The translations under genes and the position numbers were made by a program. The notes beneath the pieces were generated by a model that saw nothing but the letters and a program-made list of their open reading frames with translations, made no database searches and was not told where the DNA came from. Shown one piece after another: positions 30,943 to 54,177 of a DNA stretch of 64,000 nucleotides; the first letter of the stretch is position 1, and each line of letters begins with the position of its first letter. The DNA is from Luteibacter rhizovicinus (GTDB taxonomy: Bacteria > Pseudomonadota > Gammaproteobacteria > Xanthomonadales > Rhodanobacteraceae): the NCBI RefSeq assembly GCF_004342265.1, contig NZ_SMCS01000002.1:310001-374000 (forward strand), in the 5' to 3' direction.

Positions 30943-31139
30943 GGAGCTCGCCGTCCCCCACGTCGAGGCCACGTCGGGCGGTCGCTGCGCGACCCGGGTG
31001 GCCGGGCGGGGCTCGGTGAGCGGGCTTCCTGCCCGCACACCGAGGAAGGGGCGTCCTGCCCCTTCCCCCCCTGCGGGGCCTTATCCGCCCGGCCACCCTC
31101 GCCCTCCTACCGGCCTCGACGTGGGGGACGGCGAGCGCC
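30943..31139. repeat. Long-stem structured element, copy A
   Basis: Terminal arms 30943-30970 and 31112-31139 pair over 28 bp with one mismatch. Inside are a small hairpin (ggtcgc-tgc-gcgacc near 30980), a 14-bp inner stem (gggtggccgggcgg / ccgcccggccaccc), a hairpin with outer stem ctcggtg/caccgag (31012-31018 with 31038-31044) and inner gcgggc-ttcct-gcccgc, and a hairpin ggaaggggc-gtcct-gccccttcc. On the minus strand the two main loops read AGGAA and AGGAC. Confidence 0.8.
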
Positions 31140-31251
31140 TTCGGATGGTGGGGGAATATTGGGGTTAAGAGCCGCGTGCGGTGCAATACCTTCCGCGCTT
31201 CGCATGCGCATGTCGGGGAACGCGCCTCGCTTCATTCGGTACTCATCTTCC

Positions 31252-31404
31252 TCACCGTCACCCCGGCGTACGCCGGGGTCCGCAGCGACCACGTGGGGCA
31301 AGATCCAACGCTGAGGTTTTCGCTTGAAAGCGGCCATCGCCCTCGCGACCACCGACCACCTCGCCGCGGATTCCGGCGTGCGCCGGAATGACGGTGAGGG
31401 GGCG
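31252..31404. repeat. Family-B REPIN-like inverted pair
   Basis: Left unit with ccccggcgtacgccggggtc and right unit with ttccggcgtgcgccggaatg, separated by a ~90-bp spacer that is almost identical to the spacer in the copies at 41331-41481 and 53723-53866 (it includes caacgctgaggttttcgctt). Confidence 0.8.
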
Positions 31405-31453
31405 GGAGTTCCCGGTGATAGCTGGGTTCAAACATGGCATTCGGCGCCACCAC

Positions 31454-31479
31454 AAAAAAAAGGGCACCCGAAGGCGCCC
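31454..31479 (-). terminator. Intrinsic terminator of the EF-G paralogue gene
   Basis: On the minus strand gggcgcc-ttcg-ggtgccc is followed by eight T residues. It lies 6 bp after the stop codon of the minus-strand EF-G gene. Confidence 0.92.
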
Positions 31480-31485
31480 CCATCT

Positions 31486-33561
31486 TCATGCCGACCGTCT
31501 CGCCGGCGGGACCGATTGCTGCGATTGCGCAGGGCGATAGGCCGCGAATGCCACCGTGGCGGATGCCCGGCCCTGGCTCAACGAGCGCAGCGAGGTCGTG
31601 TATCCGTCCAGTTGCGCCAGCGGAACTTCGGCTTCGATTTCCGTCCGGCCCGCTTCTTCGACGAGGCCGATGACCTGCCCACCGCGACGCTGCAGATCGC
31701 CGAGTACATCGCCGACCGCGGTGCCCGGCGCACTGACGGACACCCGCATGACGGGTTCCAGCAGTACTGTACCGGTGGCCTCCAGCGCGGCGCGAACGCC
31801 TAGCTGGGCGGCACGGTGGAAGGCCATCTCGCTCGAATCCACCGCGTGGAATTGACCGTCCAGCACCGTGACCCGCGCACCCACCACGGGATACCCGCGC
31901 GGACCTTCCTGCAAGGCGGAGAGGATGCCTTTCTCCACGGCTGCCTGGAACGCCTTCGGAATGACGCCGCCTGTCGTGCGATCGTCGACGACGTTGCCGC
32001 CGTCCTCATGCGGTGCGACGGACAGGACGACGCGCGCGAACTGGCCGCTGCCGCCGGTCTGTTTGGCGACCTTGCCTTCGACGGCGCCCGAGTCGCGCGC
32101 TGGCGTTTCCTGATACGCCACGCGCGGCGATCCGGTGCGCACCGCAACATCCCATTCGCGTCGCAGGCGCTCGACCATCACTTCCAGGTGTAATTCGCCC
32201 ATGCCCCATACGAGCGTTTCGCCCGTTTCGGGATCGGTGCCTACGCGGAAGGACGGGTCTTCCTGGGCAAGGCGGGCCAGGCCGTTGCCAAGACGCAGCA
32301 GGTCGGCGGAGCGTTCGGGCGATAGCCGCCACGCGAGCACGGCGGGTTGCGCCTCGATAGCTTCGAGACGAAGGCGATGGTCGGTGGCCGTGAGCGTTTC
32401 GCCTGTCGCGACGTCTTTCCATCCGGCGATGGCCACGATGTCGCCAGCTTCGGCGACTTCGATGGCTTCGGTGTCTTCCGCGCGCAGCACGGCCAGCCGG
32501 CCGATGCGTTGCACGCGGTCGTTGCCGCTGCGCCATACCTGGTCGCCGACGTGCAGCTTGCCCGCATACAGACGGATGAACGCGAGCGGGCCATGCGCCT
32601 GGTTGACGACTTTGAAGACGAGCGCGGCCAGTGGCGCGTCCGCATCGGGCGCGACCATGGTGTCGCCATCGTCGGTATGCGCGACGACGGCCGGACGGTC
32701 CAGTGGCGACGGCAGGTACGCGACGAACGCGTCCAGCAACGGTTCGATACCGACGTTCTTGAATGCCGAGCCGGGTAGCACGGGCGAGCCGCGGCCCGCC
32801 AGCGTCGCGCGGCGCAGTGCAGCCATCAGCATGCCTGCGTCTACGGGGCGTTCTTCCAGCCAGGCTTCCAGCAATACGTCGTCATGCTCCGCTACCGCGG
32901 CAATCAGCGTCTGGCGTTCGGAAGCGTGCAGCGCGGCCTCGTCGGCCGACCACGCGACGACCTCGGGTTGTCCCGATGCATCCCAACGCCATGTGCGTTC
33001 GCCGACGATGTCGACGAGCGCGATCATCTGCTCGTTTTCGATCAACGGACGCGCGACTGCCCACGGATTGGCGCCGAGCCGCTCGCGCATCTGCACGAGG
33101 ACGGCGTCGAAATCCGCACCGGGACGGTCCATCTTGTTGATGAAGGCGATCAGCGGCACGCCATGCCGGCGCGCCTGGCGCCACACGGTTTCGGACTGCG
33201 GCTGTACGCCGGCGACTGCCGAGAACACGGCAACGGCGCCGTCGAGGACGCGCAGCGAGCGCTCTACTTCGATGGCGAAATCGATGTGTCCGGGTGTGTC
33301 GATAAGCGTCAGCCGATGCATGGCCTGCCCTTCGGGCGTCCAGGCAGCCTGCACCGCCGCGGCACCGATGGTGATGCCTCGTTCGCGTTCCAGTTCCATG
33401 TGGTCGGTGGTCGTTGCGCCGTCGTGGACTTCGCCGGTGCGATGGATCGCGCCGGCCTTCCACAACAGGCGTTCGGTCAACGTGGTTTTGCCGGCGTCGA
33501 CGTGGGCAATGATGCCGAGGTTGCGACGACGTTCGACGGGGATGACTTGGCGGGTACTCAT
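31486..33561 (-). CDS. elongation factor G paralogue (translational GTPase)
   Basis: 691 residues. The N-terminal GTPase domain has G1 AHVDAGKTTLTERLL, switch ERERGITI, G3 DTPGHIDF, G4 NKMDRPG and G5 in PGSAFKN; domains II-V follow, with YQETPARDSGAVEGKVAKQTGGSGQFARV in domain IV and an EF-G fold C terminus. It is too diverged, and not in a str operon (no rpsL, rpsG or tuf nearby), to be the main FusA. Candidates are an EF-G2-like factor or a ribosome-protection-type GTPase. Its 330-nt leader contains two small ORFs, a terminator and a further hairpin, suggesting it is made on demand, for example when ribosomes stall. Confidence 0.85.
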   Translation of the reverse strand: MSTRQVIPVERRRNLGIIAHVDAGKTTLTERLLWKAGAIHRTGEVHDGATTTDHMELERERGITIGAAAVQAAWTPEGQAMHRLTLIDTPGHIDFAIEVERSLRVLDGAVAVFSAVAGVQPQSETVWRQARRHGVPLIAFINKMDRPGADFDAVLVQMRERLGANPWAVARPLIENEQMIALVDIVGERTWRWDASGQPEVVAWSADEAALHASERQTLIAAVAEHDDVLLEAWLEERPVDAGMLMAALRRATLAGRGSPVLPGSAFKNVGIEPLLDAFVAYLPSPLDRPAVVAHTDDGDTMVAPDADAPLAALVFKVVNQAHGPLAFIRLYAGKLHVGDQVWRSGNDRVQRIGRLAVLRAEDTEAIEVAEAGDIVAIAGWKDVATGETLTATDHRLRLEAIEAQPAVLAWRLSPERSADLLRLGNGLARLAQEDPSFRVGTDPETGETLVWGMGELHLEVMVERLRREWDVAVRTGSPRVAYQETPARDSGAVEGKVAKQTGGSGQFARVVLSVAPHEDGGNVVDDRTTGGVIPKAFQAAVEKGILSALQEGPRGYPVVGARVTVLDGQFHAVDSSEMAFHRAAQLGVRAALEATGTVLLEPVMRVSVSAPGTAVGDVLGDLQRRGGQVIGLVEEAGRTEIEAEVPLAQLDGYTTSLRSLSQGRASATVAFAAYRPAQSQQSVPPARRSA

Positions 33562-33586
33562 GGTGACGTGTATTCCTGTTACGAAA

Positions 33587-33653
33587 CGCCAGGGGCTGGT
33601 TCGTGCAAGGGAGAGCGAGATCGACCCGTTCAGCTGACTCGTGGCCCCTGGCG
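33587..33653 (-). promoter_or_regulatory. Hairpin in the EF-G paralogue leader
   Basis: Arms 33587-33596 and 33644-33653 (cgccaggggc / gcccctggcg) form a perfect 10-bp stem between the 9-residue leader ORF and the EF-G start. The distal arm also shares a ggggc/gcccc complement with the end of the leader ORF (about 33668-33674), so two alternative foldings are possible. Confidence 0.5.
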
Positions 33654-33661
33654 GGTAACGG

Positions 33662-33691
33662 TCAGCAGTGGGGCTCGCGATGGTTTTTCAT
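33662..33691 (-). CDS. possible 9-residue leader peptide
   Basis: ATG at 33691 with ggag about 10 bases upstream encodes MKNHREPHC and a TGA stop. It lies after the leader terminator and before the 10-bp hairpin and EF-G gene. Very short, so support rests on the ribosome-binding site and on position only. It would fit ribosome-stalling control of the downstream translational GTPase. Confidence 0.35.
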   Translation of the reverse strand: MKNHREPHC

Positions 33692-33715
33692 GGCACGTGT
33701 GCTCCGGTGAAAGGC

Positions 33716-33742
33716 AAAAAAAAAGCACCCTTTCGGGTGCTT
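33716..33742 (-). terminator. Intrinsic terminator inside the EF-G leader
   Basis: On the minus strand aaagcaccc-gaaa-gggtgc is followed by nine T residues. It sits about 155 bp upstream of the EF-G start, after a small ORF and its promoter, with no other minus-strand gene to terminate; that placement is expected of a transcription attenuator. Confidence 0.8.
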
Positions 33743-33771
33743 TGGATGAACGGACGATAGCGACGGATGGA

Positions 33772-33870
33772 TTATCCGTTCGTATCGCCCCGCTGCAGAC
33801 GCACGCACCCGCGATGCGCCTGCAAAGCAGGCGACCTGTCGTGGATCAGTATGTGCATCACGCGGATCAT
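33772..33870 (-). CDS. possible 32-residue leader peptide upstream of attenuator
   Basis: ATG 33870 to TAA 33772-33774 on the minus strand encodes MIRVMHILIHDRSPALQAHR followed by a dozen more residues. An aaagga element lies about 12 bases upstream, a weak spacing. Its stop is about 30 bases before the terminator hairpin, so ribosome progress through it could decide whether the hairpin forms. No similarity recognised. Confidence 0.35.
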   Translation of the reverse strand: MIRVMHILIHDRSPALQAHRGCVRLQRGDTNG

Positions 33871-33899
33871 GTTCGTTCGGTGTCCTTTGGTTGCCGCGC

Positions 33900-33928
33900 A
33901 GGCTACGCCTGTCGCGACAAGGTTTCAA
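33900..33928 (-). promoter_or_regulatory. Candidate sigma-70 promoter of the EF-G leader
   Basis: On the minus strand TTGAAA (33928-33923), a 17-bp spacer and TAGCCT (33905-33900). It would start transcription near 33893, about 20 bases before the small leader ORF. Confidence 0.4.
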
Positions 33929-34024
33929 CGTGACCCATCAGATCGGGTTGGGCGCACTTCTTTTCAAGACCCGGCCGCCCGGCCGGGCTAAGCTGGCTCC
34001 CACGCGAATGAATGAGACACCCGC

Positions 34025-34732
34025 ATGCCCCTTTTCTCCCGGTCTCCCCTCGCCTTCGGCATCCTGCTCAGCTTTGCCGCCGCTTTTGTCGACACGATCG
34101 GTTTCGTCGCGCTTTTCGAGCTGTTCACGGCCCATGTCACGGGCAACTTCATCGTTATCGGTGCCACGCTGATCGGCCATCACGGCGGCCTGGCCATGAA
34201 GCTGCTGGCGTTGCCGGTGTTCGTCGTTTCCGTCGTCGTCACGACGCTTGCGGTGCGCGCGCTGGAACATCGCGGCCGGCAGACGCTCGGCTGGCTGCTG
34301 GCCGCGCAGATCGTCCTGCTCTGCGTGTTCATGGCGTCGGGCATGCACTTTGCGCCCATTGTCGATGCGGATGCATGGAGTACGGCCGTGACGGGACTGA
34401 TCGCCGTCGCCGCCATGGGCATCCAGAACGCCGGTTCGCGCATCGTCTTTCCGACCATCGCGCCGACCACGGTCATGACGGGCAATGTGACCCAGGTCGT
34501 CGTGGATCTCACCGACCTGTCCCGGCGCGGCACCGATGCGGATCTGACCGGTGCACGCATGCGTCTGGGCAAGATGCTGCCGGCGGTACTGGCATTCGCG
34601 ATGGGGTCGCTCACCGCGGCGCTGCTGTGGCAACGGGCCGGGTTTGCCTGCGTCGCGCTGGCTATCGCCGCACTGGTCGTGGCTTTCTTCGTGGCGCCAG
34701 CCGGACAGCCCGCGCCGGCGCACTCGCCGTAA
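34025..34732 (+). CDS. YoaK/DUF1275-family membrane protein
   Basis: 235 residues, about six hydrophobic helices. DUF1275 signatures are present: AAAFVDTIGFVALFELFTAHVTGNFIVIG near the N terminus (the F-TGN motif) and GIQNAGSRIVFPTIAPTTVMTGNVTQVVVDL in the middle. Inner-membrane location; biochemical role of the family is not established. Separate from the EF-G gene behind it (divergent) and followed 84 bp later by an aldo/keto reductase gene. Confidence 0.88.
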   Translation: MPLFSRSPLAFGILLSFAAAFVDTIGFVALFELFTAHVTGNFIVIGATLIGHHGGLAMKLLALPVFVVSVVVTTLAVRALEHRGRQTLGWLLAAQIVLLCVFMASGMHFAPIVDADAWSTAVTGLIAVAAMGIQNAGSRIVFPTIAPTTVMTGNVTQVVVDLTDLSRRGTDADLTGARMRLGKMLPAVLAFAMGSLTAALLWQRAGFACVALAIAALVVAFFVAPAGQPAPAHSP

Positions 34733-34816
34733 TGCGGTCCCATCGGTATAGCTGGCGCGATCGTCCGGATCGGCACATCATTCGAGACCTTCGTTCGTTC
34801 TTATGAAGGCTGCTCG

Positions 34817-35797
34817 ATGGAATACGTAAAACTCGGCCATACCGGTCTCGATGTCTCTCGCCTCGTCCTCGGTTGCATGACTTACGGTGTGCCCGATCGC
34901 GGCAGTCACCCATGGACGCTGGATGAAGATGCCAGCCGGCCGCTGATCCGCAAAGCCGTGGATCTGGGCATCAATTTCTTCGATACCGCAAATTCCTACT
35001 CCGACGGTACGTCGGAAGAAATCGTGGGACGTGCGTTGAGGGATTTCGCGCGACGCGACGAAGTCGTGATCGCCACCAAGACGTTCTTCCCGATGCACAA
35101 GGGACCGAATGGCGGCGGTCTGTCGCGCAAGGCGATCCTTCATTCGATCGACGCGAGCCTCGAACGGCTCGGCACCGACTATGTCGACCTATTGCAGATT
35201 CATCGCTTCGATCCGACGACGCCTATCGAGGAAACGCTGGAAGCGCTGCACGATGTCGTGAAAGCCGGCAAAGCGCGTTACATCGGTGCATCGTCGATGT
35301 TCGCGTGGCAGTTCGCGCGGATGGTCTATACCTCGCGCATGAATGGCTGGACGGAATTCGTCAGCATGCAGAACCATCTGAACCTCATCCAGCGCGAGGA
35401 AGAGCGCGAGATGCTTCCGTTCTGCGAAGACGAAGGTATCGCGGTACTGCCGTGGAGTCCGTTGGCGCGCGGTCGCCTGACCCGCGACGCGGACACCACC
35501 AGTGCGCGGCAGAACACCGATAACTACGGCGGCACGTTGTACAACGGCGCGGTGGAATCCGATCGCGCGGTGATCGGGGCGGTGGCGCGGGTCGCGGCCA
35601 ATCGGGGCGTGCCTCGTGCGCAGATCGCGTTGGCCTGGGTCATGAACAAGCCCGAGGTCACCGCGCCGATCGTCGGCGCATCGAAGCCGCAGCACCTCGA
35701 CGATGCGGTCGCGGCGCTGGAGATCGCGCTTTCACCGGAGGAAATAGCAACGCTGGAAGCGGCGTACCTGCCGCATCCGGTGGCGGGTTTCGAGTAG
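34817..35797 (+). CDS. aldo/keto reductase
   Basis: 326 residues; gaagg lies 7 bases before the ATG. NADPH-dependent TIM-barrel reductase. Catalytic tetrad appears as Asp and Tyr in FFDTANSYSDGTSEE, Lys in VVIATKTFFP and His in LLQIHRFDPTTP; the NADPH site is IVGASKPQHLDDAV near the C terminus. The subgroup resembles YhdN/AKR11-AKR14 type proteins. Physiological substrate unknown. Monocistronic; a single family-A REP arm follows the stop. Confidence 0.93.
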   Translation: MEYVKLGHTGLDVSRLVLGCMTYGVPDRGSHPWTLDEDASRPLIRKAVDLGINFFDTANSYSDGTSEEIVGRALRDFARRDEVVIATKTFFPMHKGPNGGGLSRKAILHSIDASLERLGTDYVDLLQIHRFDPTTPIEETLEALHDVVKAGKARYIGASSMFAWQFARMVYTSRMNGWTEFVSMQNHLNLIQREEEREMLPFCEDEGIAVLPWSPLARGRLTRDADTTSARQNTDNYGGTLYNGAVESDRAVIGAVARVAANRGVPRAQIALAWVMNKPEVTAPIVGASKPQHLDDAVAALEIALSPEEIATLEAAYLPHPVAGFE

Positions 35798-35802
35798 TCG
35801 AA

Positions 35803-35825
35803 ACCCGCAGGCGCGCTCCCACAGA
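35803..35825. repeat. Solitary family-A REP arm
   Basis: ccgcaggcgcgctcccacag just after the aldo/keto reductase stop matches the right arm of the REPINs at 6636-6666 and 61341-61369. No partner arm is present before the CHAD gene. Confidence 0.65.
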
Positions 35826-35873
35826 AAGCTCATAGAGCAACATGCTCGCGTCCTTTACCCCTAACATCGACAA

Positions 35874-36680
35874 ATGCCCGCCGACACCCCAGACCTTGGC
35901 CTCCTTCTCGCCGACCTCGCCGCCAATCAGGCGCGTGCGCTCGCGCGTGCCCTTGGCCGGTCGAAAGACCGGCACAAGGCGATTCACGAGGCACGAAAGG
36001 CCGTACGCCGCCTTCGCGCCGTACTGAACATCGGCCTGGCCAGGTTCGACGACGATGCAAGCGCCATCGACCGGGGACTGCGCGCACTGGGACGCGGCCT
36101 GTCCACCCTGCGCGACTCACATGTCGCCGTGGTCACGGGAAAAACCCTCGTCGGCGAAGCCAAACCCGCAGAACGTGCGGCATGGGACGCCGCCATCGCG
36201 GCGCTCGAAGCGCGCCGCGACGGCATGCTCGGCGAAGCGCTCCGGCTCGATCCCGAATTTCGCCGGCGCATCGCGCGCGTGCAGCGAGCCGCCGAAGCTA
36301 TCGCCGCGCTCCCCTGGAAACGGGTAAAGAAGAAGCATGTCCGGGACGCGCTGGCACTCAGTGCCCGGCGAGCCCACCGCGCCGCCGAAAGGGCGCAGGA
36401 GGAAGGCTCGCCCGTGACGATCCATAGCTGGCGCCGCCGCGTGCGCCGGGAGCGCCTTCAGTTGCAGGCACTCCAGTCGATGCACAAACGCTCGGGCGTG
36501 CATATCGAAGGCGTCGTCGAACACACCGGTTCCATTCGCAAGCTCATGCGTACGGCCGACCGCCTTGGTTGGCAGCAAGACCTGCGCCTGCTGAAGAACG
36601 GCCTGCGCGCGACGCATACCGAGATCGACGAGGCCGTACTCGCCACGATTCGTAGCGCCGTCGCCTCCGCTCGCCCCTGA
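35874..36680 (+). CDS. CHAD-domain protein
   Basis: 268 residues. The conserved histidine alpha-helical domain binds polyphosphate. Helical bundle with the pattern KAIHEARKAVRRLRAVLNI (His followed by basic residues) near residues 40-58, RGLSTLRDSHVAV, and the second half HSWRRRVRRERLQLQALQSM ... LMRTADRLGWQQDLRLL. Many Arg and His residues suit an anionic polymer ligand. No CYTH or PPK gene adjoins it. No clear Shine-Dalgarno; the ATG at 35874 is the first that gives the full domain. Confidence 0.88.
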   Translation: MPADTPDLGLLLADLAANQARALARALGRSKDRHKAIHEARKAVRRLRAVLNIGLARFDDDASAIDRGLRALGRGLSTLRDSHVAVVTGKTLVGEAKPAERAAWDAAIAALEARRDGMLGEALRLDPEFRRRIARVQRAAEAIAALPWKRVKKKHVRDALALSARRAHRAAERAQEEGSPVTIHSWRRRVRRERLQLQALQSMHKRSGVHIEGVVEHTGSIRKLMRTADRLGWQQDLRLLKNGLRATHTEIDEAVLATIRSAVASARP

Positions 36681-36756
36681 AACCATCTCTCTTCCCTGCG
36701 AGAACGTTTGACTTCGGACGTCCGGACGGCTAACTTTCGCGTCGTCAGCGGTCTTT

Positions 36757-36780
36757 ATCTTTGTATTCGAATATAGAGAT
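36757..36780. promoter_or_regulatory. SAM-cycle operator candidate, metE site
   Basis: 24-bp palindrome of the form ATC-N5-AT-N4-AT-N5-GAT, here extended to ctttatct / agataaag (36753-36784) around a perfect tattcgaata centre. Equivalent sites precede metK, ahcY and metF. It lies immediately 5' of the cobalamin aptamer, so probably at the metE promoter. Confidence 0.6.
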
Positions 36781-36955
36781 AAAGCTAAGAGGGAAGCCGG
36801 TGGGAATCCGGCGCTGCCCCGCAGCGGTATGTGGAAACGAACTCGTCAGGGGCTTCGAAGCCCCGGCACTGGACCGGATCGGTCCGGGAAGCGGCGAACC
36901 AGGTGGTGCGCATGCGCACCGTGTCCACGAGCCCGAAGACCTGCCGCCGACCGAA
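36775..36955 (+). ncRNA. Cobalamin (B12) riboswitch upstream of metE
   Basis: The conserved aptamer elements occur in order: aagagggaagccggtgggaa, atccggcgctgccccgc, and the B12 box in gcccgaagacctgccg (36931-36946). Binding of adenosylcobalamin is expected to switch off the B12-independent methionine synthase. About 215 nt separate the B12 box from the start codon and contain further stems. Confidence 0.93.
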
Positions 36956-36956
36956 G

Positions 36957-37081
36957 GCGCGAGCGACCGTCATGGGTTGCACGCGCCTGGTCCGACCTGG
37001 GTTCGCGTTTCCGTTTCCGAAACGCTACCGGTTCGCCCGCGGGGGCGAAGGTCGACGGTCAGTCCGCCATGACGCTCGCGC
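36957..37081 (+). promoter_or_regulatory. Structured expression platform between B12 aptamer and metE
   Basis: Arms 36957-36975 and 37067-37081 pair over 15-16 bases around a 3-nt bulge (gtcatgg with ccatgac, gcgcgagc with gctcgcgc). Within lie gcgtttc/gaaacgc and ttcgccc/gggcgaa stems, and cgctc-ttca-gagcg follows at about 37088-37101. No T-run is present, so control is more likely through RBS access or Rho than an intrinsic terminator. Confidence 0.55.
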
Positions 37082-37171
37082 TTGTCTCGCTCTTCAGAGC
37101 GGGACACACGGGCGCGCGTCGCGACGGTATGGCCGCCCTTCCCTCCTCTTTGCCACGAAGAGGATGCACTC

Positions 37172-39463: not shown

Positions 39464-39597
39464 TCTTCGTGTGCAGGAGTGCCCTGGCGCGCTCCTGCAC
39501 ACGTTTTCTGTCTGAATATCACGCAACCGTCAGGGAGGCGCGATAGGCTTGGACTGCAAAACCGCCAAGGGCCGTGTATCATAGCCCGCCCCCATTC

Positions 39598-39621
39598 ATC
39601 TCTTTATCCGTAAAGAAGGAT
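39598..39621. promoter_or_regulatory. SAM-cycle operator candidate, metK site
   Basis: Same 24-bp framework as the metE, ahcY and metF sites (right end GGAT in place of AGAT). It ends 11 bp before the metK ATG, and a tatatc hexamer overlaps its end at 39621-39626. Either it lies downstream of the promoter as a roadblock site, or transcription begins at the start codon. Confidence 0.55.
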
Positions 39622-39632
39622 ATATCACCGCG

Positions 39633-40939: not shown

Positions 40940-41481
40940 CCCCCTCACCGTCGTCCCTGTGCAGGCTTCGGACCCAGTGCGGTGCAATGGGTTGTCGCGA
41001 ATACGCTCGATCAGCTCTTCGGAGCGTTGCGACGTGCGAAGGTGAGGCAAGGAGCTCGCCGTCCCCCACGTCGAGGCCACGTCGGGCGGTCGCTGCGCGA
41101 CCCGGGTGGCCGGGCGGGGCTTCGTGAGCGGGCTTCCTGCCCGCGCACGAAGGAAGGGGCCTTATCCGCCCGGCCACCCTCGCCCTCCTACCGGCCTCGA
41201 CGTGGGGGACGGCGAGCTCCTTCGGATGGTGGGGGAATTTTGGGGTTAAGAGCCGCGTGCGGTGCAATACCTTCCGCGCTTCGCATGCGTATGTCGGCGA
41301 ACGCGCCTCGCTTCATTCGGTGCTCATCTTCCTCACCGTCATTCCGGCGTACGCCGGGGTCCGCAGCGACCACGTCAGGCAAGCTCCAACGCTGAGGTTT
41401 TCGCTTGAAAGCGGCCATCGCCCTCGCGACCACCGACCACCTCGCCGCGGATTCCGGCGTGCGCCGGAATGACGGTAAGGG
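40940..41481. repeat. Mosaic repeat cluster, copy B
   Basis: Same order as 30835-31404: family-C unit, long-stem element (41051-41220), shared linker including gccgcgtgcggtgcaatacc, and family-B pair (41331-41481). Differences from copy A are scattered substitutions plus a ~27-bp deletion within the long-stem element that removes its second hairpin between two gggg runs. No gene here. Confidence 0.85.
41051..41220. repeat. Long-stem structured element, copy B
   Basis: Terminal arms 41051-41078 and 41193-41220 are perfect 28-bp complements (30 bp with flanking aa/tt). The hairpin corresponding to ctcggtg/caccgag in copy A is here cttcgtg/cacgaag (41120-41126 with 41146-41152), two pairs exchanged on both sides. 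The second AGGA-loop hairpin is deleted. Confidence 0.8.
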
Positions 41482-41589: not shown

Positions 41590-41775
41590 GACGGCCGGGC
41601 GTCGAAACCCGATTCGCTTATAGACCACGCAGGTCGACTTACGTCGCCTGCGTTCACTCCCGCGTGTTTACGGCGGGCGTGTCGGGCAGGCTTCGGCCTG
41701 GCCGGGTTTTGGTCTAGGCGACCGGTTTCGACCCCGACACGTCCGCCACCTCGCGCATCGCGGGTGGCGGCTCTT
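41590..41775 (+). promoter_or_regulatory. Hairpin-rich 5' region of a small gene
   Basis: Contains a 9-bp perfect stem cgtgtcggg / cccgacacg (41678-41686 with 41733-41741) enclosing smaller stems (ggtctaggcgacc), and a second hairpin ccgccacc / ggtggcgg (41743-41770) with cgcg/cgcg inside. It ends about 20 bp before the ATG at 41795. Likely a structured 5' UTR; no known riboswitch class was recognised. Confidence 0.45.
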
Positions 41776-45282: not shown

Positions 45283-45313
45283 GGAGAAACCCCGCCTCCC
45301 CGGCGGGGTTTCC
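45283..45313 (-). other. Hairpin between xylF and xylG
   Basis: An 11-bp perfect stem (gaaaccccgcc / ggcggggtttc, 45286-45296 with 45302-45312) and five-base loop. In the direction of the operon no T-run follows, so read-through is expected; a T-run exists only on the opposite strand. Typical of 3'-end protection of a binding-protein message. Confidence 0.65.
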
Positions 45314-45349
45314 CATTTTTACCAGCCGGCCGCGTTTGGTGCGCCGGTT

Positions 45350-46363: not shown

Positions 46364-46389
46364 GGTCTCTCCTTAGCTCTGGTCGCCCT

Positions 46390-47892
46390 TCAGGATGGGC
46401 GGATGTCGGCGCCGTTGGCGACGTCAGAAAAGATAGGCTTCAACTGCTTGTACAAGCGGCGGAACAAAGGGTGGCGGGTTTCGCGGAAATAAGCATGACG
46501 CGCTGCATCGGGCTCGCGAACGGCCAGACGCCCGGGCATCGGGCAGACCTGGTCGAGCGTAGCACCTGGCTCGGCGGCCAGGTGTGCAAGGCGCGCGGCG
46601 CCCAGCGCGGGGCCAACTTCACCGCCCCGGCGCAGGACGAGCGGCTTGCCCAGGATGTCAGCAAGCATCTGCGTCCAGTAGGCGCTACGCGATCCGCCGC
46701 CGATGACGGTGATCTCGTCGGCGACGAGGCCCGTGGATTCCACGGCGAGAAGGCCGTCCAGAAGGCCAAGGCCCACGCCTTCCAGCGTTGCGTTGACCAG
46801 ATCGGTCCGCTCGGTGTCCGGTCCCAGACCGGTGAACGAACCTCGCGCATGCGCATCGTTGTGCGGCGTACGTTCGCCCGTGAGGTAGGGAAGGAACATC
46901 GGGCCGTCTTCACGCAGCCCGGCGGATTCGCCATCGGCCAGCAGGGACGGCACGTCCGCGTAACCGGTAAGGCGCGCGGTGAAATCGAGGCAACTGGCGG
47001 CGTTGAGCATTACCGACATCAGGTGCCAGGTGTCCGGCAACGCATGACAGAAGCTGTGCACCGCCTGTTCGGGACGGGAACGAAAACCGTCGGAAACGGC
47101 GAAGTACACGCCGGACGTTCCCAGCGAGAGCATCGCCTGACCATGGCGCACGATGCCCACACCCACGGCACCGGCGGCGTTGTCGCCACCGCCGGCGGCC
47201 ACCGGCACGGCGTCGATGCCCCAGCGCTCGGCGACGTCGCGACGCAGACGGCCGCTCGCCTGACTGCCTTCGCGGACTTCGGGCATGTTCGCGCGCGTAA
47301 GACCGGTGGCGGCAAGCATCTCGTCGCTCCACTGCCGGCGCGCCACGTCCAGCCAGAGCGTGCCTGCGGCATCGGATGCGTCGGTGACGTAGTCGCCAGT
47401 CATCAGCAGACGCAGATAATCTTTCGGCAGCAGGACTTTCGCGACACGATCGAAAACGCCGGACTCGTGCTTGCGCACCCACGCGAGCTTGGGCGCCGTG
47501 AAACCTGGCATGGCCAGGTTTCCGGTAATGTCGCGAAAATGCGGAACGCGTTCCAGTTCCGCGCATTCGATATCGGAACGCCCGTCGTTCCACAGGATGG
47601 CCGGACGAAGCACGCGGTCGGCGCTGTCCAGCAACGTGGCGCCGTGCATCTGGCCGCTAAGACCGATACCGGAGACGCGGCGGCGACCGATGCCCGCGCG
47701 TTCCGCGGCACGCAACGCTTCGCCGACCGCCGCCTCCGTCGCCGCCCACCACGACGCGGGGTCTTGCTCGGACCATCGCGGCCGTGGATGGGATACGTCC
47801 AGCGGACTGGACGCCGTGGCGCGCACGTCGCCTTCCTCGTCGATCAGTACGGCCTTGACGGACGATGTGCCCAGATCGATACCCAGAAACAT
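46390..47892 (-). CDS. xylB: xylulokinase
   Basis: 500 residues from ATG 47892; a start 36 bp upstream is possible but lacks a better ribosome-binding site. FGGY kinase that phosphorylates D-xylulose. Seen: MFLGIDLGTSSVKAVLIDE, SGIGLSGQMHGATLLD, ILWNDGRSDIEC, and the FGGY C-terminal GGGSRSAYWTQMLADILGKPL. Catalytic Asp is expected in AAGGGDNAAGAVGVG. Second gene of the xylose operon after xylA. Confidence 0.94.
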   Translation of the reverse strand: MFLGIDLGTSSVKAVLIDEEGDVRATASSPLDVSHPRPRWSEQDPASWWAATEAAVGEALRAAERAGIGRRRVSGIGLSGQMHGATLLDSADRVLRPAILWNDGRSDIECAELERVPHFRDITGNLAMPGFTAPKLAWVRKHESGVFDRVAKVLLPKDYLRLLMTGDYVTDASDAAGTLWLDVARRQWSDEMLAATGLTRANMPEVREGSQASGRLRRDVAERWGIDAVPVAAGGGDNAAGAVGVGIVRHGQAMLSLGTSGVYFAVSDGFRSRPEQAVHSFCHALPDTWHLMSVMLNAASCLDFTARLTGYADVPSLLADGESAGLREDGPMFLPYLTGERTPHNDAHARGSFTGLGPDTERTDLVNATLEGVGLGLLDGLLAVESTGLVADEITVIGGGSRSAYWTQMLADILGKPLVLRRGGEVGPALGAARLAHLAAEPGATLDQVCPMPGRLAVREPDAARHAYFRETRHPLFRRLYKQLKPIFSDVANGADIRPS

Positions 47893-47920
47893 ATGACTGT
47901 CCGTATCCCTGTCGAGCGGA

Positions 47921-49237
47921 TCAACCATAAATATAGCGGTTGACGATGTTTTCAAGCAGTTCCTGTTCGCCCGACCGGTGGTTCGGATGGATATTGCGCA
48001 AGACTGCATCGTCGGCCATGGAGGCCAGACTGAAGCCACCGTCGAGGATTTTGCGACCGAACGTACCGTCCCATCCCGCATAGCGCCTGGCCTTCAGCTC
48101 GGCCAGCGTGTCGCGTTCGATCATCTTCACGGCACGTTCCAGGCCGAGCGCCAGCGCATCGATCGCGCCGATGTGCCCATGGAACAGGTCGGCCGGATCG
48201 GAACTCTGACGGCGCACCTTGGTATCGAAGTTGAAACCGCCGGACGTAAAACCGCCAGCGCGCAGGATTTCGTAGATCACCAGCGTGAGTTCCTCGACGC
48301 TGTTCGGGAACTGATCGGTATCCCAGCCGTTCTGCGGATCGCCGCGGTTGGCGTCGATGCTGCCGAAGACGCCCAGCGCGATCGACGTGGCGACCTCGTG
48401 CTGGAACGAATGACCGGCGAGCGTGGCGTGGTTGGCTTCCAGATTCGTCTTCACCTCGTTTTCGAGGCCGAACTCCTTGAGGAAACCGTAGACCGTCGCG
48501 GTGTCGTAGTCGTACTGGTGCTTCGTAGGTTCCTGCGGCTTCGGCTCGATCAGGATCAGTCCGTCGAAACCGATCTTGTACTTATGCTCGATGACCATCT
48601 GGAAGAACCTACCGAGTTGCGCGCGCTCGCGCTTGAGATCGGTATTGAGCAGCGTGTCGTAACCTTCGCGACCACCCCACAGTACATAGTTGGCGCCGCC
48701 CAGACGCAGCGTGGCATCCATCGCGTTACGCACCTGAGTGGCCGCGTAAGCGAACACGTCCGGCTGCGGGTTGGTCGCGGCGCCGGCCGCATAACGCGGA
48801 TGGCTGAACACGTTGGCGGTGCCCCAGAGCAGCTTCATGCCCGTCGTGGCCTGCTTGGCCTCGAGCACGTCGACCATCTCGGCGAGGTTCTTCTGGTACT
48901 CGCCCAGGCTATTGCCTTCGGGCGCGATATCGGTGTCGTGGAACGTGTAGTAAGGCGTGCCCAGTCGCGAAAAGAAGTCGAACGCGGCATCGGCCTTCAG
49001 GCGCGCCTGGGCCATCGGATCGCCCGCCTGTTGCCAGGGACGTTCGAAGGTGCCGGCACCGAATACGTCCGAGCCCGGCCACACGAAGGTATGCCAGTAA
49101 CAGACGGCAAGACGCAGGTGTTCGGCCATGGTCTTGCCCAACAGCTTCTTGCTGGGATCGTAGTGATGGAACGCGAGCGGGTTGTCCGATCCGGTTCCTT
49201 CGAAGCGGATCTTCGGGATGGCGTCGAAGTAAGACAT
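47921..49237 (-). CDS. xylA: xylose isomerase
   Basis: 438 residues. Converts D-xylose to D-xylulose. Class II isomerase: catalytic His100 and Asp103 in [13 protein letters not shown], metal ligands in [17 protein letters not shown] (Glu near 231), [17 protein letters not shown], and [24 protein letters not shown]. First gene of the operon, divergent from xylR; the 177-bp gap holds the shared operator candidate. Confidence 0.96.
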
Positions 49238-49295
49238 GGCAGTCCTTGGGTGCTAGACGAATAGCCAAGATGCTGACGACGGGACTTCTGGCGGG

Positions 49296-49308
49296 CAATT
49301 GCGAAATT
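49296..49308. promoter_or_regulatory. Candidate XylR operator between xylA and xylR
   Basis: caattgcgaaatt, within ggcaattgcgaaattcgcc (an imperfect palindrome), matches 12 of 13 bases of the reverse complement of 9636-9648. It lies 59 bp upstream of the xylA start and 107 bp upstream of xylR. Confidence 0.5.
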
Positions 49309-49414
49309 CGCCAGTCCGATGATCTTTTTCATTGCCGCGCTGCGTCATGAGGGGCGGATGACCTCGTGCTAGCGTGAGCGACCGGCAAGCCGCCAGGTCT
49401 TCCCTTCGAGAGTC

Positions 49415-50593
49415 ATGGCCCCGCATCGCATCGCGCTGTTGTTCAACGCCAACAAGGTGTACGACCGGCAGGTCATCGCGGGTATTGGCCAGTATCTGAA
49501 CTCCACTCGCGTGGAATGGGACCTCTTCATGGAAGAGGATTTCCGTTGCCGCATGCGCGATATCCATCGCTGGCAGGGCGACGGCATCATTGCCGACTTC
49601 GACGATCCGGACGCCACCGACGCCCTGTGCAATCTGACAATGCCGGTGGTCGCGGTCGGCGGGTCGTATCACGATGCTGCCGCCTATCCCGTCAACACGC
49701 CGTATATCGCCACCGATAACGCGAAGCTGGTGCGCCTGGCCTACGATCACCTGATCGAGCAGGGCTTGCAGCGTTTTGCTTTTTACGGCCTGCCGCCCAA
49801 CCCACGCAGTCGCTGGGCGCTGGAGCGCGAAGGTGCCTTCGAACGCATTCTCGCCGCGGACGGCATGGAGAGCACGGTCTACCGCGGTTCGCCCACCAGC
49901 GCGGGCGGCTGGGGCCATGCGGTAGAGGAACTGGTCGCGTGGCTGCGTTCGCTGCCCAAGCCGATCGGTATCGTCGCGGCGACCGACGCGCGTGCACGGC
50001 AGCTTTTGCAGGCCTGCGTGATCGGTGAAATTTCCGTGCCCGAACAGGTCGCCATCGTCGGCATCGACAACGATCCGATGGCGCAGTTGCTTACGCGCAT
50101 TCCGCTGACGTCGGTGATCCAGGGTGCCGAGGAAATGGGGCGCACCGCTGCGCATCTCCTGCATCAGATGCTGCGCGGCGCCACTTGCGCGGACACGCGG
50201 GTACTGGTGCCGCCGGTCGGCATCAACGTGCAGGCGTCGAGCAAGCACCAGCCGGTGAAGAGCCCGCACGTCATGCGCGCCAGCCATTACATTCGCCAGT
50301 ACGCCTGTCTTGGCATCAAGACCGAACAGGTGGCCGACTATGTCGGCATTTCGCGCACGGTGCTCGAAGAACATTTCAAGCGCGAACTGAAGCAGACCGT
50401 GCACCAGGCCATCCTGCAGCACAAACTCGAAACGGCGCGCGAACTGCTCGCCGGATCGACGACACCGCTCACGGATATCGCCGTGCGCTGCGGCTTCACC
50501 TCGTTGCAGTACATGTATGCCGTGTTCCGCCGCGAATACGATTGCACGCCCAGGCAGTATCACGAAGCCCACCGCCAGATCATCCCCAGCTAG
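49415..50593 (+). CDS. xylR: xylose operon regulator XylR
   Basis: 392 residues. Same architecture as the regulator at 8319-9515: periplasmic-binding-like sensor (HRIALLFNANKVYDRQVIAG, VAVGGSYHDAAAYPVNTP, IVGIDNDPMAQLL) and C-terminal AraC double HTH (LGIKTEQVADYVGISRTVLEEHFK; PLTDIAVRCGFTSLQYMYAVFRREYD). E. coli XylR is activated by xylose and turns on the xyl genes. Its position opposite xylA and before galM identifies it with good confidence as the xylose sensor. Confidence 0.93.
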   Translation: MAPHRIALLFNANKVYDRQVIAGIGQYLNSTRVEWDLFMEEDFRCRMRDIHRWQGDGIIADFDDPDATDALCNLTMPVVAVGGSYHDAAAYPVNTPYIATDNAKLVRLAYDHLIEQGLQRFAFYGLPPNPRSRWALEREGAFERILAADGMESTVYRGSPTSAGGWGHAVEELVAWLRSLPKPIGIVAATDARARQLLQACVIGEISVPEQVAIVGIDNDPMAQLLTRIPLTSVIQGAEEMGRTAAHLLHQMLRGATCADTRVLVPPVGINVQASSKHQPVKSPHVMRASHYIRQYACLGIKTEQVADYVGISRTVLEEHFKRELKQTVHQAILQHKLETARELLAGSTTPLTDIAVRCGFTSLQYMYAVFRREYDCTPRQYHEAHRQIIPS

Positions 50594-50607
50594 CACGGAA
50601 GCGATCC

Positions 50608-51681
50608 ATGAACGCCATTACTCCCGCCCGACAATGGGGCGCGCTGCCAGACGGCCGTATCGCGCATCGCTGGACTCTGCGCAACGACAGCGGCATGGCG
50701 GTCGACATCAGCGATCTCGGCGGTACCCTGCTTTCCTGGCAGGCGCCGGATCGTCAGGGCCGCTTCGGCGATGTGCTGCTGGGTCACGCCACGCCGGGCG
50801 ACTATCTGCATGCGACGGCGTATATGGGTGCTCTCATCGGGCGCTGGGCGAACCGTATCCGCGATGGCCGCTTCGAGCTGGATAACGTGCCCTACCGGCT
50901 GGACCGGAACGACGGCCCGAATCACCTGCACGGTGGACTGGACGGTTTTCACCACAGGTTGTGGGAGGTCGAGGCGTCGATCGGCGAACTGCACCTGCGT
51001 CTGGTATCGCCCGAGGGCGAAGGTGGATTCCCCGGCGAACTGAGCGTGGAGGTGACGTATCGCCTCGACGACGACGGCACGCTGGAAATCGCATACACCG
51101 CTCACACCGATGCGGCCACGCCGGTGAACCTGACGTCGCACCCCTATTTCAATCTCAACGACCGTCGTGGCGACATCCGCGACCACATGCTTCGCATCGA
51201 CGCGGATGCGTTCCTGGCGACCGACGCGGGCGGTATCCCGTACCGGCGCCAGCCCGTCGCGGGCTCGGCTTTCGATTTCCGCGACGCGGCACCCATCGGC
51301 GCGCGCCTGCTCTGGCCGGACGATCAGCTGAAGATCGCCGGCGGCTTCGACCATTGCTATGTTCTTTCTGAGAGCAGTCTGCCTGAGAGCCGCCTGACTG
51401 GCGAGCACGCGCCGCTGCGCGAGGTAGCCGTCGTGGCCGATCCGGCCAGCGGCCGGCACCTGACTGTTTCGACGGATCAACCCGGCCTGCAGTTCTACAG
51501 CGGCCAGAAACTGGGCGGCACCGGCCGCCGCGAAGGCGGCCATTACGAGGCTTTTTCCGGCTTCGCGCTGGAGGCCCAGGCCTTCCCGGACCAGATCAAC
51601 GGACCCGACGACGCCGCGGTGGTCCTCCGGCCGGGGGCGGTTTATCGGCAGACCACGCAGTACAGGCTCGGCGTCGACTGA
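50608..51681 (+). CDS. galM: aldose 1-epimerase (mutarotase)
   Basis: 357 residues, 14 bp after xylR. GalM fold interconverts alpha and beta anomers of free aldoses. Catalytic His lies in NLTSHPYFNLND and the catalytic Glu in FALEAQAFPDQIN; substrate blocks GRWANRIRDGRFEL, NHLHGGLDGFHHRLWEV and DQPGLQFYSGQ are present. Its linkage to xylR suggests it serves xylose import, supplying the anomer used by XylA. The symbol is by family; specificity is not proved. Confidence 0.9.
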   Translation: MNAITPARQWGALPDGRIAHRWTLRNDSGMAVDISDLGGTLLSWQAPDRQGRFGDVLLGHATPGDYLHATAYMGALIGRWANRIRDGRFELDNVPYRLDRNDGPNHLHGGLDGFHHRLWEVEASIGELHLRLVSPEGEGGFPGELSVEVTYRLDDDGTLEIAYTAHTDAATPVNLTSHPYFNLNDRRGDIRDHMLRIDADAFLATDAGGIPYRRQPVAGSAFDFRDAAPIGARLLWPDDQLKIAGGFDHCYVLSESSLPESRLTGEHAPLREVAVVADPASGRHLTVSTDQPGLQFYSGQKLGGTGRREGGHYEAFSGFALEAQAFPDQINGPDDAAVVLRPGAVYRQTTQYRLGVD

Positions 51682-51705
51682 GGAGCAGTCCGCTACACTA
51701 GGGGG

Positions 51706-53574
51706 ATGTCTCTTATCCAACTCATCCACGTCGACTACAGCATCGGCGGCCCCCTCCTGCTCGAACAGGTCGATCTTTCGATCGAACCGAACGAGCGCGT
51801 GTGTATCGTCGGCCGTAACGGCGCCGGCAAATCGACCCTGCTCAAGCTCATCGCGGGTGAGATTCACCCCGACGACGGCGAGATCCGGGTCCAGGGCGGC
51901 ACGCGCATCGCGCGTCTGACCCAGGAAGTCCCCCAGGGCACCGCCGGCAGCGTCTTCGACGTCGTGGCCGAAGGCCTGGGCGAACTGGGTCACCTGCTCG
52001 CCCGCTACCACCACCTGCTGGCCGAAGGCGATTTCGACGCACTTGGCGACGTGCAGAGCCAGATCGAAGCACAGAACGCGTGGGATCTGGACGCGCGCGT
52101 GCAGCGGATCGTGGAAGAACTGGAACTGCCGGAAACGGCCGACTTCGCCGATCTGTCAGGCGGCATGAAGCGTCGCGTGCTGATGGGCCAGGCCCTCGTG
52201 CGCGCGCCCGACTTGCTGCTGCTGGACGAACCGACCAACCACCTGGATATCGAAGCGATCGCGTGGCTCGAAGATTTCCTCAAGAACTTCGGCGGCAGCA
52301 TCATCTTCATCACCCATGACCGCAGCTTCCTGCGTTCGCTTGCCACCCGCATCGTCGAAATCGACCGCGGCAATGTCACCAGTTGGCCGGGTGATTACGA
52401 AAATTACCTGCGTCGCCGCGAAGAGCGCCTGCATGCCGAGTCGCAGGCCAATGCACTGTTCGACAAGAAGCTGGCGCAGGAAGAAGTCTGGATTCGCCAG
52501 GGCATCAAGGCACGCCGCACCCGCAACGAGGGCCGCGTCCGTGCACTGAAGGACCTTCGCAACGAACGCTCCGAGCGCCGCGAGGTCACCGGTACGGCGA
52601 AGATCACACTGGCGAACGCACAGTCTGGCGGTCGCAAGGTTGTGGACGCGAAGCACGTCACGCAGGCGTATGGCGGCCGCACGCTGTTGCGCGATCTTTC
52701 CACCACGATCATGCGCGGCGATCGCGTTGGCATCATCGGTCCGAACGGCGCGGGCAAGAGTACGTTGCTGAAAATCCTGCTGGGCGAGCTGAAGCCGCAG
52801 GAAGGCGAGGTGACGCTCGGCACGGGGCTGGAGATCGCCTATTTCGACCAGCATCGTTCGACGCTGGACGATAGCCTGAATGCGCTGGACAACGTGGCCG
52901 AAGGCCGCGAGTACATCGAACTCAACGGCACGCGCAAACACATCATCGGCTACCTGCAGGATTTCCTGTTCTCGCCGGAACGCGCACGCGCACCCATCAC
53001 CCGCCTGTCGGGCGGCGAACGCAATCGCCTGCTGTTGGCGAAGCTGTTCGCACAGCCGTCCAACCTGTTGGTGATGGATGAACCGACCAACGATCTGGAC
53101 ATCGAAACGCTGGAGCTGCTCGAAGAACTGCTCGGCGAATACAGCGGCACGCTGCTGCTCGTTTCGCATGACCGTGCGTTCATCGACAACGTTGTTTCGA
53201 GCACGCTGGTGCTGGAAGGCGATGGCGTCGTCGGCGAATACATCGGCGGCTATAACGACTGGGTACGTCAGCGCCCGGCTGCCGCAGCCGCGATGGCGCG
53301 CGCGTCGAAAGCCCAGCTGCCAGCGACATCCACTCCGGCTCCCGCCCCCGCGAAGCGCAAGCTGAGTTTCAAGGAACAGCGCGAACTCGACCTGCTTCCC
53401 GAGAAGCTGGAGACGCTGGAAAAGGACATCGCCACGCGTACCGACGCGATGAATGCACCCGGCTATTTCCAGCAGGACAATGCGGTGATCGTTCGTAACA
53501 ACGAAGCCATCGCGAAGCTGCAAGCCGAGCTGGATGCGGCCTATAAGCGCTGGGAAGAACTAGAAAACGGTTGA
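51706..53574 (+). CDS. uup: ABC-F ATPase Uup
   Basis: 622 residues. Cytoplasmic ABC-F protein with two nucleotide-binding cassettes and no membrane domain: Walker [13 protein letters not shown] and [12 protein letters not shown], signatures LSGGMKRRVLM and LSGGERNRLLL, Walker B LLLLDEPTNHLD and LLVMDEPTNDLD. The C-terminal ~70 residues form a coiled coil (FKEQRELDLLPEKLETLEKD) which marks Uup, a DNA-binding and ribosome-associated factor limiting transposon excision in E. coli. Immediately after galM but functionally unrelated. Confidence 0.92.
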   Translation: MSLIQLIHVDYSIGGPLLLEQVDLSIEPNERVCIVGRNGAGKSTLLKLIAGEIHPDDGEIRVQGGTRIARLTQEVPQGTAGSVFDVVAEGLGELGHLLARYHHLLAEGDFDALGDVQSQIEAQNAWDLDARVQRIVEELELPETADFADLSGGMKRRVLMGQALVRAPDLLLLDEPTNHLDIEAIAWLEDFLKNFGGSIIFITHDRSFLRSLATRIVEIDRGNVTSWPGDYENYLRRREERLHAESQANALFDKKLAQEEVWIRQGIKARRTRNEGRVRALKDLRNERSERREVTGTAKITLANAQSGGRKVVDAKHVTQAYGGRTLLRDLSTTIMRGDRVGIIGPNGAGKSTLLKILLGELKPQEGEVTLGTGLEIAYFDQHRSTLDDSLNALDNVAEGREYIELNGTRKHIIGYLQDFLFSPERARAPITRLSGGERNRLLLAKLFAQPSNLLVMDEPTNDLDIETLELLEELLGEYSGTLLLVSHDRAFIDNVVSSTLVLEGDGVVGEYIGGYNDWVRQRPAAAAAMARASKAQLPATSTPAPAPAKRKLSFKEQRELDLLPEKLETLEKDIATRTDAMNAPGYFQQDNAVIVRNNEAIAKLQAELDAAYKRWEELENG

Positions 53575-54177
53575 CGCTGAAGCGCTGACACCCCCTCACC
53601 GTCGTCCCTGCGCAGGCTTCGGACCCAGTGCGGTGCATTGGGTTGTCGCGACTACGCTCGATCAGATCTTCGGAGCGTCGCGACGGGCGAGGCAAGGAGC
53701 TCGCCCCTTAGCCTTATCTTCCTCACCGTCACGCCGGGGTCCGCAGCGACCACGTGGGGCAAGATCCAACGCTGAGGTTTTCGCTTGAAAGCGGCCATCG
53801 CCCTCGCGACAACCGACCACCTCGCCGCGGATTCCGGCGTGCGCCGGAATGACGGTGAGGGGTGAGGGGAACTGAGGGGCCGTCAGCGGTTCGCTTTGCT
53901 CGTCACACCCATTGCCTCACCGCTCGGCGGAACCAGCCGGCCCCCTCGCCGGGCCCGGTAGGAGGGCGAGGCTGGTCGGGCGGGTAGGCCCCGAAGGGGG
54001 AAGGGGCAGGACGCCCCTTCCTTCGTGCGCGGGCAGGAAGCCCGCTCACGAAGCCCCGCCAGTCCACCCGCGTCGCGCAGCGACCGCCCGACGTGGGCCC
54101 GGCGAGGGGGCCGGCTGGTTCCACCCAACGCCACAACACACCGCGACGCTCTTCCGGCGAAAGCTGGTCAAAACCAA
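53575..54177. repeat. Mosaic repeat cluster, copies C and D
   Basis: 53592-53866 is a shortened copy of the A/B clusters: the family-C unit and gaggcaaggagctcgcc are kept, then the long-stem element and part of the linker are missing, and the family-B pair follows. A separate long-stem element in reverse orientation lies at 53929-54122. No gene is present between uup and ppc. Confidence 0.8.
53929..54122. repeat. Long-stem structured element, copy D (reverse orientation)
   Basis: Terminal arms 53929-53956 and 54095-54122 are perfect 28-bp complements but differ from copy B at 8 of 28 positions, every change being matched on the opposite arm. The core is the reverse complement of copies A and B. 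On this strand the hairpin loops read AGGAC (54008-54012, stem ggaaggggc) and AGGAA (54035-54039, stem gcgggc). Confidence 0.8.

Follow-up and report, generated by a model that had tools for sequence, protein, structure and literature searches.

The subject of this analysis is a palindromic element that lies in three copies, A, B and D, in the window, by which we mean the whole stretch of 64,000 nucleotides from Luteibacter rhizovicinus (RefSeq assembly GCF_004342265.1, contig NZ_SMCS01000002.1, positions 310,001 to 374,000). The explanation that we favour, with confidence somewhat better than even, is that the element is an intergenic palindromic repeat on a branch of the Rfam motif TwoAYGGAY (RF01731), that it spreads as DNA, and that its minus strand, if transcribed, would show a pair of RsmA/CsrA hairpins. 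That it is a dispersed DNA repeat is held with high confidence. We read it as a DNA element because it is repeated, wobble pairs are scarce in its stems, copy D appears to have been gained, and strand bias is lacking. The earlier note, made from the letters of the window, had proposed a structured RNA, a hairpin-mobile DNA element, or both, and this shortlist was correct: a rule for the loops and DNA-like stems are combined in the favoured explanation.

In the proposed mechanism a non-coding palindromic repeat would multiply as DNA between genes, both as single units and as inverted pairs, and would be mixed there with other interspersed repeats, for example the CGTC and GTAG repetitive extragenic palindromes (REPs). 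The element may be mobile or formerly mobile. On its minus strand the long closing stem holds two hairpins with A(N)GGA loops, their GGA triplets 26-29 nt apart, and read-through of this strand from a gene would produce an RNA with two sites already placed for a single RsmA/CsrA dimer. The copies would then be dispersed binding sites or decoys for RsmA/CsrA. Binding of RsmA/CsrA in the cell is suggested by the loop sequences and we put it slightly below an even chance. A more far-reaching proposal, possible but on balance unlikely, is that TwoAYGGAY and its relatives are mobile DNA palindromes carrying an RsmA/CsrA decoy and not small RNA (sRNA) genes, in which case the hairpins would double as the single-stranded DNA form that spreads and as a bivalent trap, and copy number would tune the global regulator.

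Source-genome copies and the pairing of their stems

A BLAST search of the source genome found 12 complete copies of the element, together with a copy truncated at the end of a contig (L013) and a decayed one (L015); the last two were left out of the 12-copy alignment. The earlier note had counted three copies, which is not the full number, and its coordinates for all three are right. The copies have three types of stem around a nearly invariant core: A and B are of type 1, D and seven more are of type 2, and L003 and L004 are of type 3. As had been claimed, 8 of the 28 positions in each arm of the terminal stem are different between B and D, these are the identical 8 positions, and every difference is compensated. 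Compensation is likewise complete at the 9 stem positions that differ between B and type 3 (L003) and at the 11 that differ between D and type 3, one pair of copies having been compared in each case. The exchange of two pairs reported for an inner hairpin is real (alignment columns 74/102 and 75/101). There are flaws in the stems, namely, one unpaired position in 5 of the 12 copies, a bulge in one copy, and half-changed stem states among the type-2 copies. Over the 12-copy alignment 98.2% of the cells pair and two-sided changes occur in 19 pairs, compared with a mean of 11.7 after shuffling (none of 500 shuffles reached 19) and 0-2 when the arms were slid. In this comparison copy B is a deletion derivative from which the second hairpin is missing. 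The predicted folds of copies A and D are at -167 to -168 kcal/mol and none of 200 shuffles was as stable (z = -11.4 for A and -10.6 for D); the z-scores cover A and D only, copy B having been folded without a shuffle comparison. GTAG (minus strand) and CGTC strings stand at the core edges of the source-genome copies, which sit in a mosaic with other interspersed repeats. Three short relatives of about 110 nt, L056 (C1:649346), L057 and L059, share the core edges CCACGTCGCGC ... GCTCCTAC and have a long stem that is largely paired, and the two GGA hairpins are absent from them; stem and flank can be present where the core is missing.

For the wider comparison 136 rows from 100 chosen loci were aligned (alignment A4), and 7 identical rows were dropped to leave the 129 distinct cores on which most counts are based. 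Two-sided changes occur in 40 of the 41 pairs of these cores (1318 cells), and the covariation score is 0.636 as against 0.148 after shuffling and at most 0.108 with the arms slid. The statement of the earlier note that the fold and not the sequence is kept holds in the first half, since pairing persists as the stem sequence drifts, also far outside the source genome, but not in the second, because the loop sequence is kept too, as described below.

The changes are almost purely from one Watson-Crick pair to another. A model-fitted alignment of 61 representatives with less than 85% identity has 2228 Watson-Crick, 12 G-T, 22 A-C, and 119 other cells. 6S RNA served as the control (30 loci from the same order), and 231 of its 1565 pairs (14.8%) are wobble pairs, whereas the element, put through MAFFT and RNAalifold as for 6S RNA, has 74 of 2081 (3.6%) on its plus strand, 44 of the 74 being in one column pair, and 41 of 2135 (1.9%) on its minus strand. 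By this method one-sided changes stand against two-sided changes as 34 to 627 on the plus strand and 35 to 630 on the minus strand of the element, and as 122 to 240 in 6S RNA; the stems of the element thus do not evolve as those of an RNA in which wobble is tolerated. The model-fitted element alignment gives 15 against 1398, counted on all 136 A4 rows, but the 6S control was not model-fitted and the like-for-like figures are those by MAFFT and RNAalifold. A small DNA-palindrome control, CGTC REPs from the source genome (n = 29), gave 222 Watson-Crick, 5 G-T, and 3 A-C cells. An early tally on alignment A2 (177 G-T and 69 A-C) was misleading and is taken to reflect distant rows out of register.

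The stems are kept near Watson-Crick strictness, in the manner of DNA palindromes. The earlier note had taken compensation as the sign of a kept fold. Because the changes are almost purely Watson-Crick and DNA-palindrome-like, compensation alone is no proof of an RNA or of selection at the RNA level. The element shows covariation without the wobble intermediates of a normal RNA, and this is a warning that DNA palindromes can yield strong two-sided covariation. The causes of the strict pairing could be selection on a DNA fold, arm-to-arm copying, selection on both RNA strands, or a mix of these, and it is probable that the stems are kept at the DNA level. One explanation does without selection on the fold altogether: template switching or arm-to-arm conversion in replication would keep the arms alike, and covariation would be a mutational artefact. 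Arm-to-arm conversion, which the earlier note had named as a refuting case, would give a pattern equal to the one seen, with nearly all compensation Watson-Crick and few one-sided changes, and the half-changed states among the type-2 copies are in line with it, as are element-less loci with part of the left arm only, which fit hairpin deletion. We consider this explanation improbable; it leaves the conserved A(N)GGA loops, their 26-29 nt spacing, and the all-or-none exchange of tandem G.A pairs unexplained.

Loops of the minus strand and the relation to TwoAYGGAY

The consensus for CsrA/RsmA binding is A(N)GGA/CANGGANG, in which N is optional. Minus-strand A(N)GGA stands in loop 1 of 126, in loop 2 of 113, and in both loops of 112 of the 129 cores, and in 122 of the 129, with GGA in both loops, the GGA-to-GGA distance is 26-29 nt. 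The family cores thus have at least two A(N)GGA sites in hairpin loops, as in an RNA bound by CsrA/RsmA. Hairpin 1 mostly has two Watson-Crick pairs or a tandem mismatch; tandem G.A pairs occur in 36 of 129 cores, always as 5'-GA/GA on the minus strand, the only strand on which they would be stable. In 91 of 129 cores the minus-strand sequence of loop 3 is (C)GNA(G), which is UNCG on the plus strand. Because of the loop rule and the tandem G.A pairs, the strand-specific face of the element is, judged from sequence, the minus strand, opposite to the orientation in the earlier note. Wobble tallies conflict between alignments and are not the basis of this call. The model-based tallies, 18 on the plus strand against 61 on the minus strand for the 129 rows and 12 against 22 for the 61 representatives, give a weak strand preference. 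An anchored scan (115 G-T and 2 A-C on the minus strand) ran past the helix end and was replaced by a count with limited helices.

The same features can be read as those of a pure DNA element, in which a folded single strand or a cruciform would be recognised, the loops would be bound by a single-strand recombinase or transposase, and any RNA would be a by-product. Such recognition would be like that of REPs with TnpA-REP or of integron attC sites. Tandem G.A pairs and GNA loops are known to be stable in DNA, and the element has the former in hairpin 1 and the latter, on the minus strand, in hairpin 3; the very few wobble pairs, the absence of a strand bias with respect to tandem genes, the variable copy number within one genus, and the gain at the D locus also speak for this explanation. 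However, both loops fit the CsrA/RsmA consensus including its optional N, and no Y1 transposase gene was found beside an element in the loci described below. In our judgement a pure DNA element is unlikely.

No named RNA or repeat family had seemed to fit the element. A related named family exists, namely, TwoAYGGAY, on the opposite strand, and copy D itself has no score with it; a novel unnamed RNA family is therefore rejected. The RF01731 consensus is a long outer stem with two hairpins that have CAUGGAUG-type loops, a plan equal to that of the element. Two covariance models were used, R1 from the 12 source-genome copies and R2, a core-only model from 35 diverse cores, and the E-values of both are rough because calibration was short. 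R2 matches 16 of 30 fetched RF01731 loci at the same site, all 16 on the opposite strand, with a weakest E of 0.018. Conversely, Rfam scans of element loci at E limits of 1, 0.5 and 2 gave RF01731 matches in 8 of 45 distinct loci, all 8 on the element's minus strand, at 33.0-38.1 bits, which is below the gathering threshold of 43 bits. Locus L020 is a bridge, with 158.5 bits for R1 and 38.1 bits for RF01731, and homology can thus be followed through intermediates on a consistent strand. RsmW was matched twice at L093, sub-threshold, and RF01731 and RsmW are both in clan CL00106.

Taken together, the element is very probably a relative of TwoAYGGAY. The window copies appear to be a divergent branch and not formal members, because copy D gives no match and the whole window, at the Rfam gathering score, matches cobalamin, C4 and SAH only and not RF01731; no window copy reaches the 43 bits. 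On one strand, A and D have two adjacent GGA-loop hairpins enclosed by a long closing stem, and B has lost one of the two. The AYGGAY hexaloop is the minority form among the relatives, being loop 1 in 15 and loop 2 in 26 of the 129 cores. The RF01731 hairpins themselves are nearly wobble-free, the 37 that were parsed having 270 Watson-Crick, 1 G-U, 1 A-C, 4 G.A, and 20 other pairs. When 369 class genomes were searched with RF01731, seven candidates being scored per genome, 23 were positive, 15 were over the cut-off, and 11 had at least 3 matches, some as close inverted pairs. CsrA binding has been proposed for TwoAYGGAY before, by Gardner and Eldai. That proposal (PMC4333381) is supported by our results because the A(N)GGA loop rule, with its optional N, is seen in a much larger set of sequences. 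A 2010 paper (PMC2864571) lists TwoAYGGAY, from human gut, gamma-Proteobacteria and Clostridiales, as a probable RNA that is probably not cis-regulatory, and the Rfam type of RF01731 is cis-regulatory. In a limited literature search no statement was found, in the accessible parts of the papers, that the motif is a dispersed repeat or lacks wobble. An unnamed repeat is hereby placed in a family, and an unexplained Rfam motif now takes in many dispersed intergenic repeats of Xanthomonadales and further gamma-proteobacteria. The question whether TwoAYGGAY is an RNA, a mobile DNA hairpin, or both becomes testable.

Distribution, gene surroundings and mobilisation

A covariance-model search of Xanthomonadales genomes had been suggested as a check, and with R1 53 of the 147 family genomes were found to have relatives. 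R2 matched 71 of 250 genomes of the order and, at E <= 1e-5, 26 of 369 genomes of the class, where nine regions with distant matches were inspected. Several copies per genome are common, the copy number within one genus ranges from 2 to at least 15, and inverted pairs are frequent (start-to-start roughly 230 to 1100 bp). In other genera, where 17 matches were read, the common order of parts is a long stem or helix, an arm with a TCC loop, a hairpin with a TCC loop, a third hairpin, and a CCTTnTC-like tail. A pattern scan of named genomes gave, among the matches listed, Dyella, Rhodanobacter, [Pseudomonas] boreopolis and a Luteibacter metagenome-assembled genome, and plasmid and phage collections gave no match to copy D. 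Beside the element many of the loci L079-L097, L168, L170, L175 and L212-L230 have another long hairpin, GTTACTTTTCTTTGC...GCAAAGAAAAGTAAC, followed by AAAGAGAAGGGCACCCC-like sequence. Locus L136 has near-threshold matches to the cspA thermoregulator on both sides of the element, at 464-791 and 1764-2067 (72.7 and 69 bits; threshold 78).

Gene contexts were examined at 107 places with a simple caller of open reading frames (ORFs) based on GC3, not a gene finder. Only 3 of the 107 places are inside a called ORF. Of 93 upstream genes called, 73 are directed toward the element, 65 of 90 downstream genes are directed back, and 46 of 84 fully called contexts have a convergent gene pair around the element. 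It could be argued from this that the element is a plus-strand RNA of the 3' untranslated region or a terminator, with the UNCG-like third hairpin lying just past gene ends, because called upstream genes are mostly directed into it on its plus strand, it is often placed between convergent genes, and the common loop of hairpin 3 is c(UNCG)g in the plus-strand reading. However, convergent placement makes both strands equally 3', the orientation of the element in tandem-gene contexts (18 against 13) clearly favours neither strand, read on the plus strand the tandem G.A pairs would become C.U/U.C, and there is no T-run directly past the stem in the three window copies. This explanation is very improbable.

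Six same-genus genomes were compared at the D locus. In them the matches to the two flanking genes are separated by 19-104 bp, and the element is absent. The comparison covers these six out of 22 other same-genus genomes; of the rest, four have a gap of about 130-360 bp and twelve a larger one. Since the element is missing in these relatives, copy D seems to have been gained in the source lineage or else lost in all six. Element-less sites in the window (Table 1) and at L054, L061 and L071 have the outer part only of the left stem arm followed by right-flank sequence, and they look like hairpin deletions or empty sites.

Several results weigh against the favoured explanation of a DNA repeat of the TwoAYGGAY branch with RsmA/CsrA hairpins. 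A normal RNA would have more wobble than is seen, and the strand tally by MAFFT and RNAalifold, with 74 G-T and 41 A-C on the plus strand and 41 and 40 on the minus strand, does not favour the minus strand. With RF01731 copy D remained unmatched up to an E of 10 and the source genome had no match at E <= 0.001, 14 of the 30 RF01731 loci are without an R2 match at the site, and only 1 of the 37 parsed RF01731 hairpins has tandem G.A pairs. The tandem-gene contexts show that no strand is consistently transcribed, and no promoter was identified by eye, no promoter scan having been made. Thirty Y1_Tnp loci with flanks of up to 1.5 kb, out of 42 Y1 matches from element-bearing genomes, were without an R2 match at E <= 0.05, and the Y1 gene of the source genome is flanked by ordinary REPs, as judged by eye. 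Mobilisation by the source genome's Y1 transposase, or by the Y1 genes of element-bearing genomes, is thus not supported. It is also not supported that the inverted pairs are the ends of one coding transposon, since the ORFs between the pairs of six loci, by reading and without a family search, are not of a common kind: there is none at L165, L176 has a methionyl-tRNA-synthetase-like ORF, and no common kind was seen at L105, L174, L175 and L177.

Table 1. Copies of the element, their apical loops and an element-less remnant in the window
Feature	Position	Strand	Remarks
Copy A	30943..31139	+	Stem type 1, complete: terminal stem and three hairpins; one stem position unpaired
Copy A, apical loop 1	31026..31030	-	AGGAA in minus-strand reading
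Copy A, apical loop 2	31053..31057	-	AGGAC in minus-strand reading
Copy B	41051..41220	+	Stem type 1; internal deletion of ~27 nt, hairpin 2 gone
Copy B, apical loop 1	41134..41138	-	AGGAA in minus-strand reading; loop 2 deleted
Element-less remnant	53694..53705	+	Type-1 left flank and outer part only of left stem arm (AAGGAGCTCGCC), then right-hand sequence
Copy D	53929..54122	-	Stem type 2, complete
Copy D, apical loop 2	54008..54012	+	AGGAC on window plus strand (D's own minus strand)
Copy D, apical loop 1	54035..54039	+	AGGAA on window plus strand (D's own minus strand)

The gene upstream of copy B is the S-adenosylmethionine synthetase gene, and copy D lies between converging genes for an ABC transporter-type ATPase (ABC-F by reading) and phosphoenolpyruvate carboxylase. 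A C4 antisense RNA scores above the Rfam threshold at 41666-41753 (+) of the window and is followed by a small ORF from about 41797 (by eye). The same-genus locus L020 also has a C4 RNA above threshold near the element, together with sub-threshold c4-a1b1 and isrK matches. A cobalamin riboswitch at 36732-36962 and an S-adenosylhomocysteine (SAH) riboswitch at 56978-57067 of the window are both above threshold.

Comparison with known sRNAs, REPs and TwoAYGGAY

CsrB/C, RsmX/Y/Z and RsmW are single-locus sRNA genes. The element has in common with them the paired hairpins with A(N)GGA loops, and at L093 the sub-threshold RsmW matches, but it differs in being a dispersed repeat with very little wobble and with no promoter identified by eye. 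The REP, BIME and TIRtron repeats are, according to Di Nocera 2013 (PMC3733652), dispersed palindromes that are often in inverted pairs and lie mostly downstream of genes, between convergent or unidirectional genes, and many elements of the Stenotrophomonas TIR families occur there as dimers or clusters. The element is likewise a dispersed palindrome, often in inverted pairs. However, REPs are 20-40 bp long with a GTAG or CGTC tag in the same account (PMC3733652), whereas the units of the element measure roughly 100-245 bp and contain several hairpins as well as conserved loops; in the source genome the unit is a multi-hairpin structure of about 170-200 bp, and the GTAG/CGTC strings at its edges do not make it a simple REP, a stem-loop with an unpaired tag. 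It also differs from REPs and TIRtrons, and from RAYT- or TIRYT-associated repeats whose copies flank a Y1 (HUH) transposase gene, in that no transposase was found beside it in the 30 Y1 loci and at the source-genome Y1 gene.

Compared with TwoAYGGAY, the source-genome copies have AGGAA and AGGAC pentaloops where the motif has AYGGAY, and the third hairpin (UNCG/GNA) and an extra helix inside the long stem are absent from the RF01731 consensus. On the other hand, both have a long closing stem, that of RF01731 being called not well conserved in PMC4333381, and two inner hairpins with GGA loops. R2 matches sites of the motif on the opposite strand, both occur in gamma-Proteobacteria, and both are multi-copy with some close inverted pairs.

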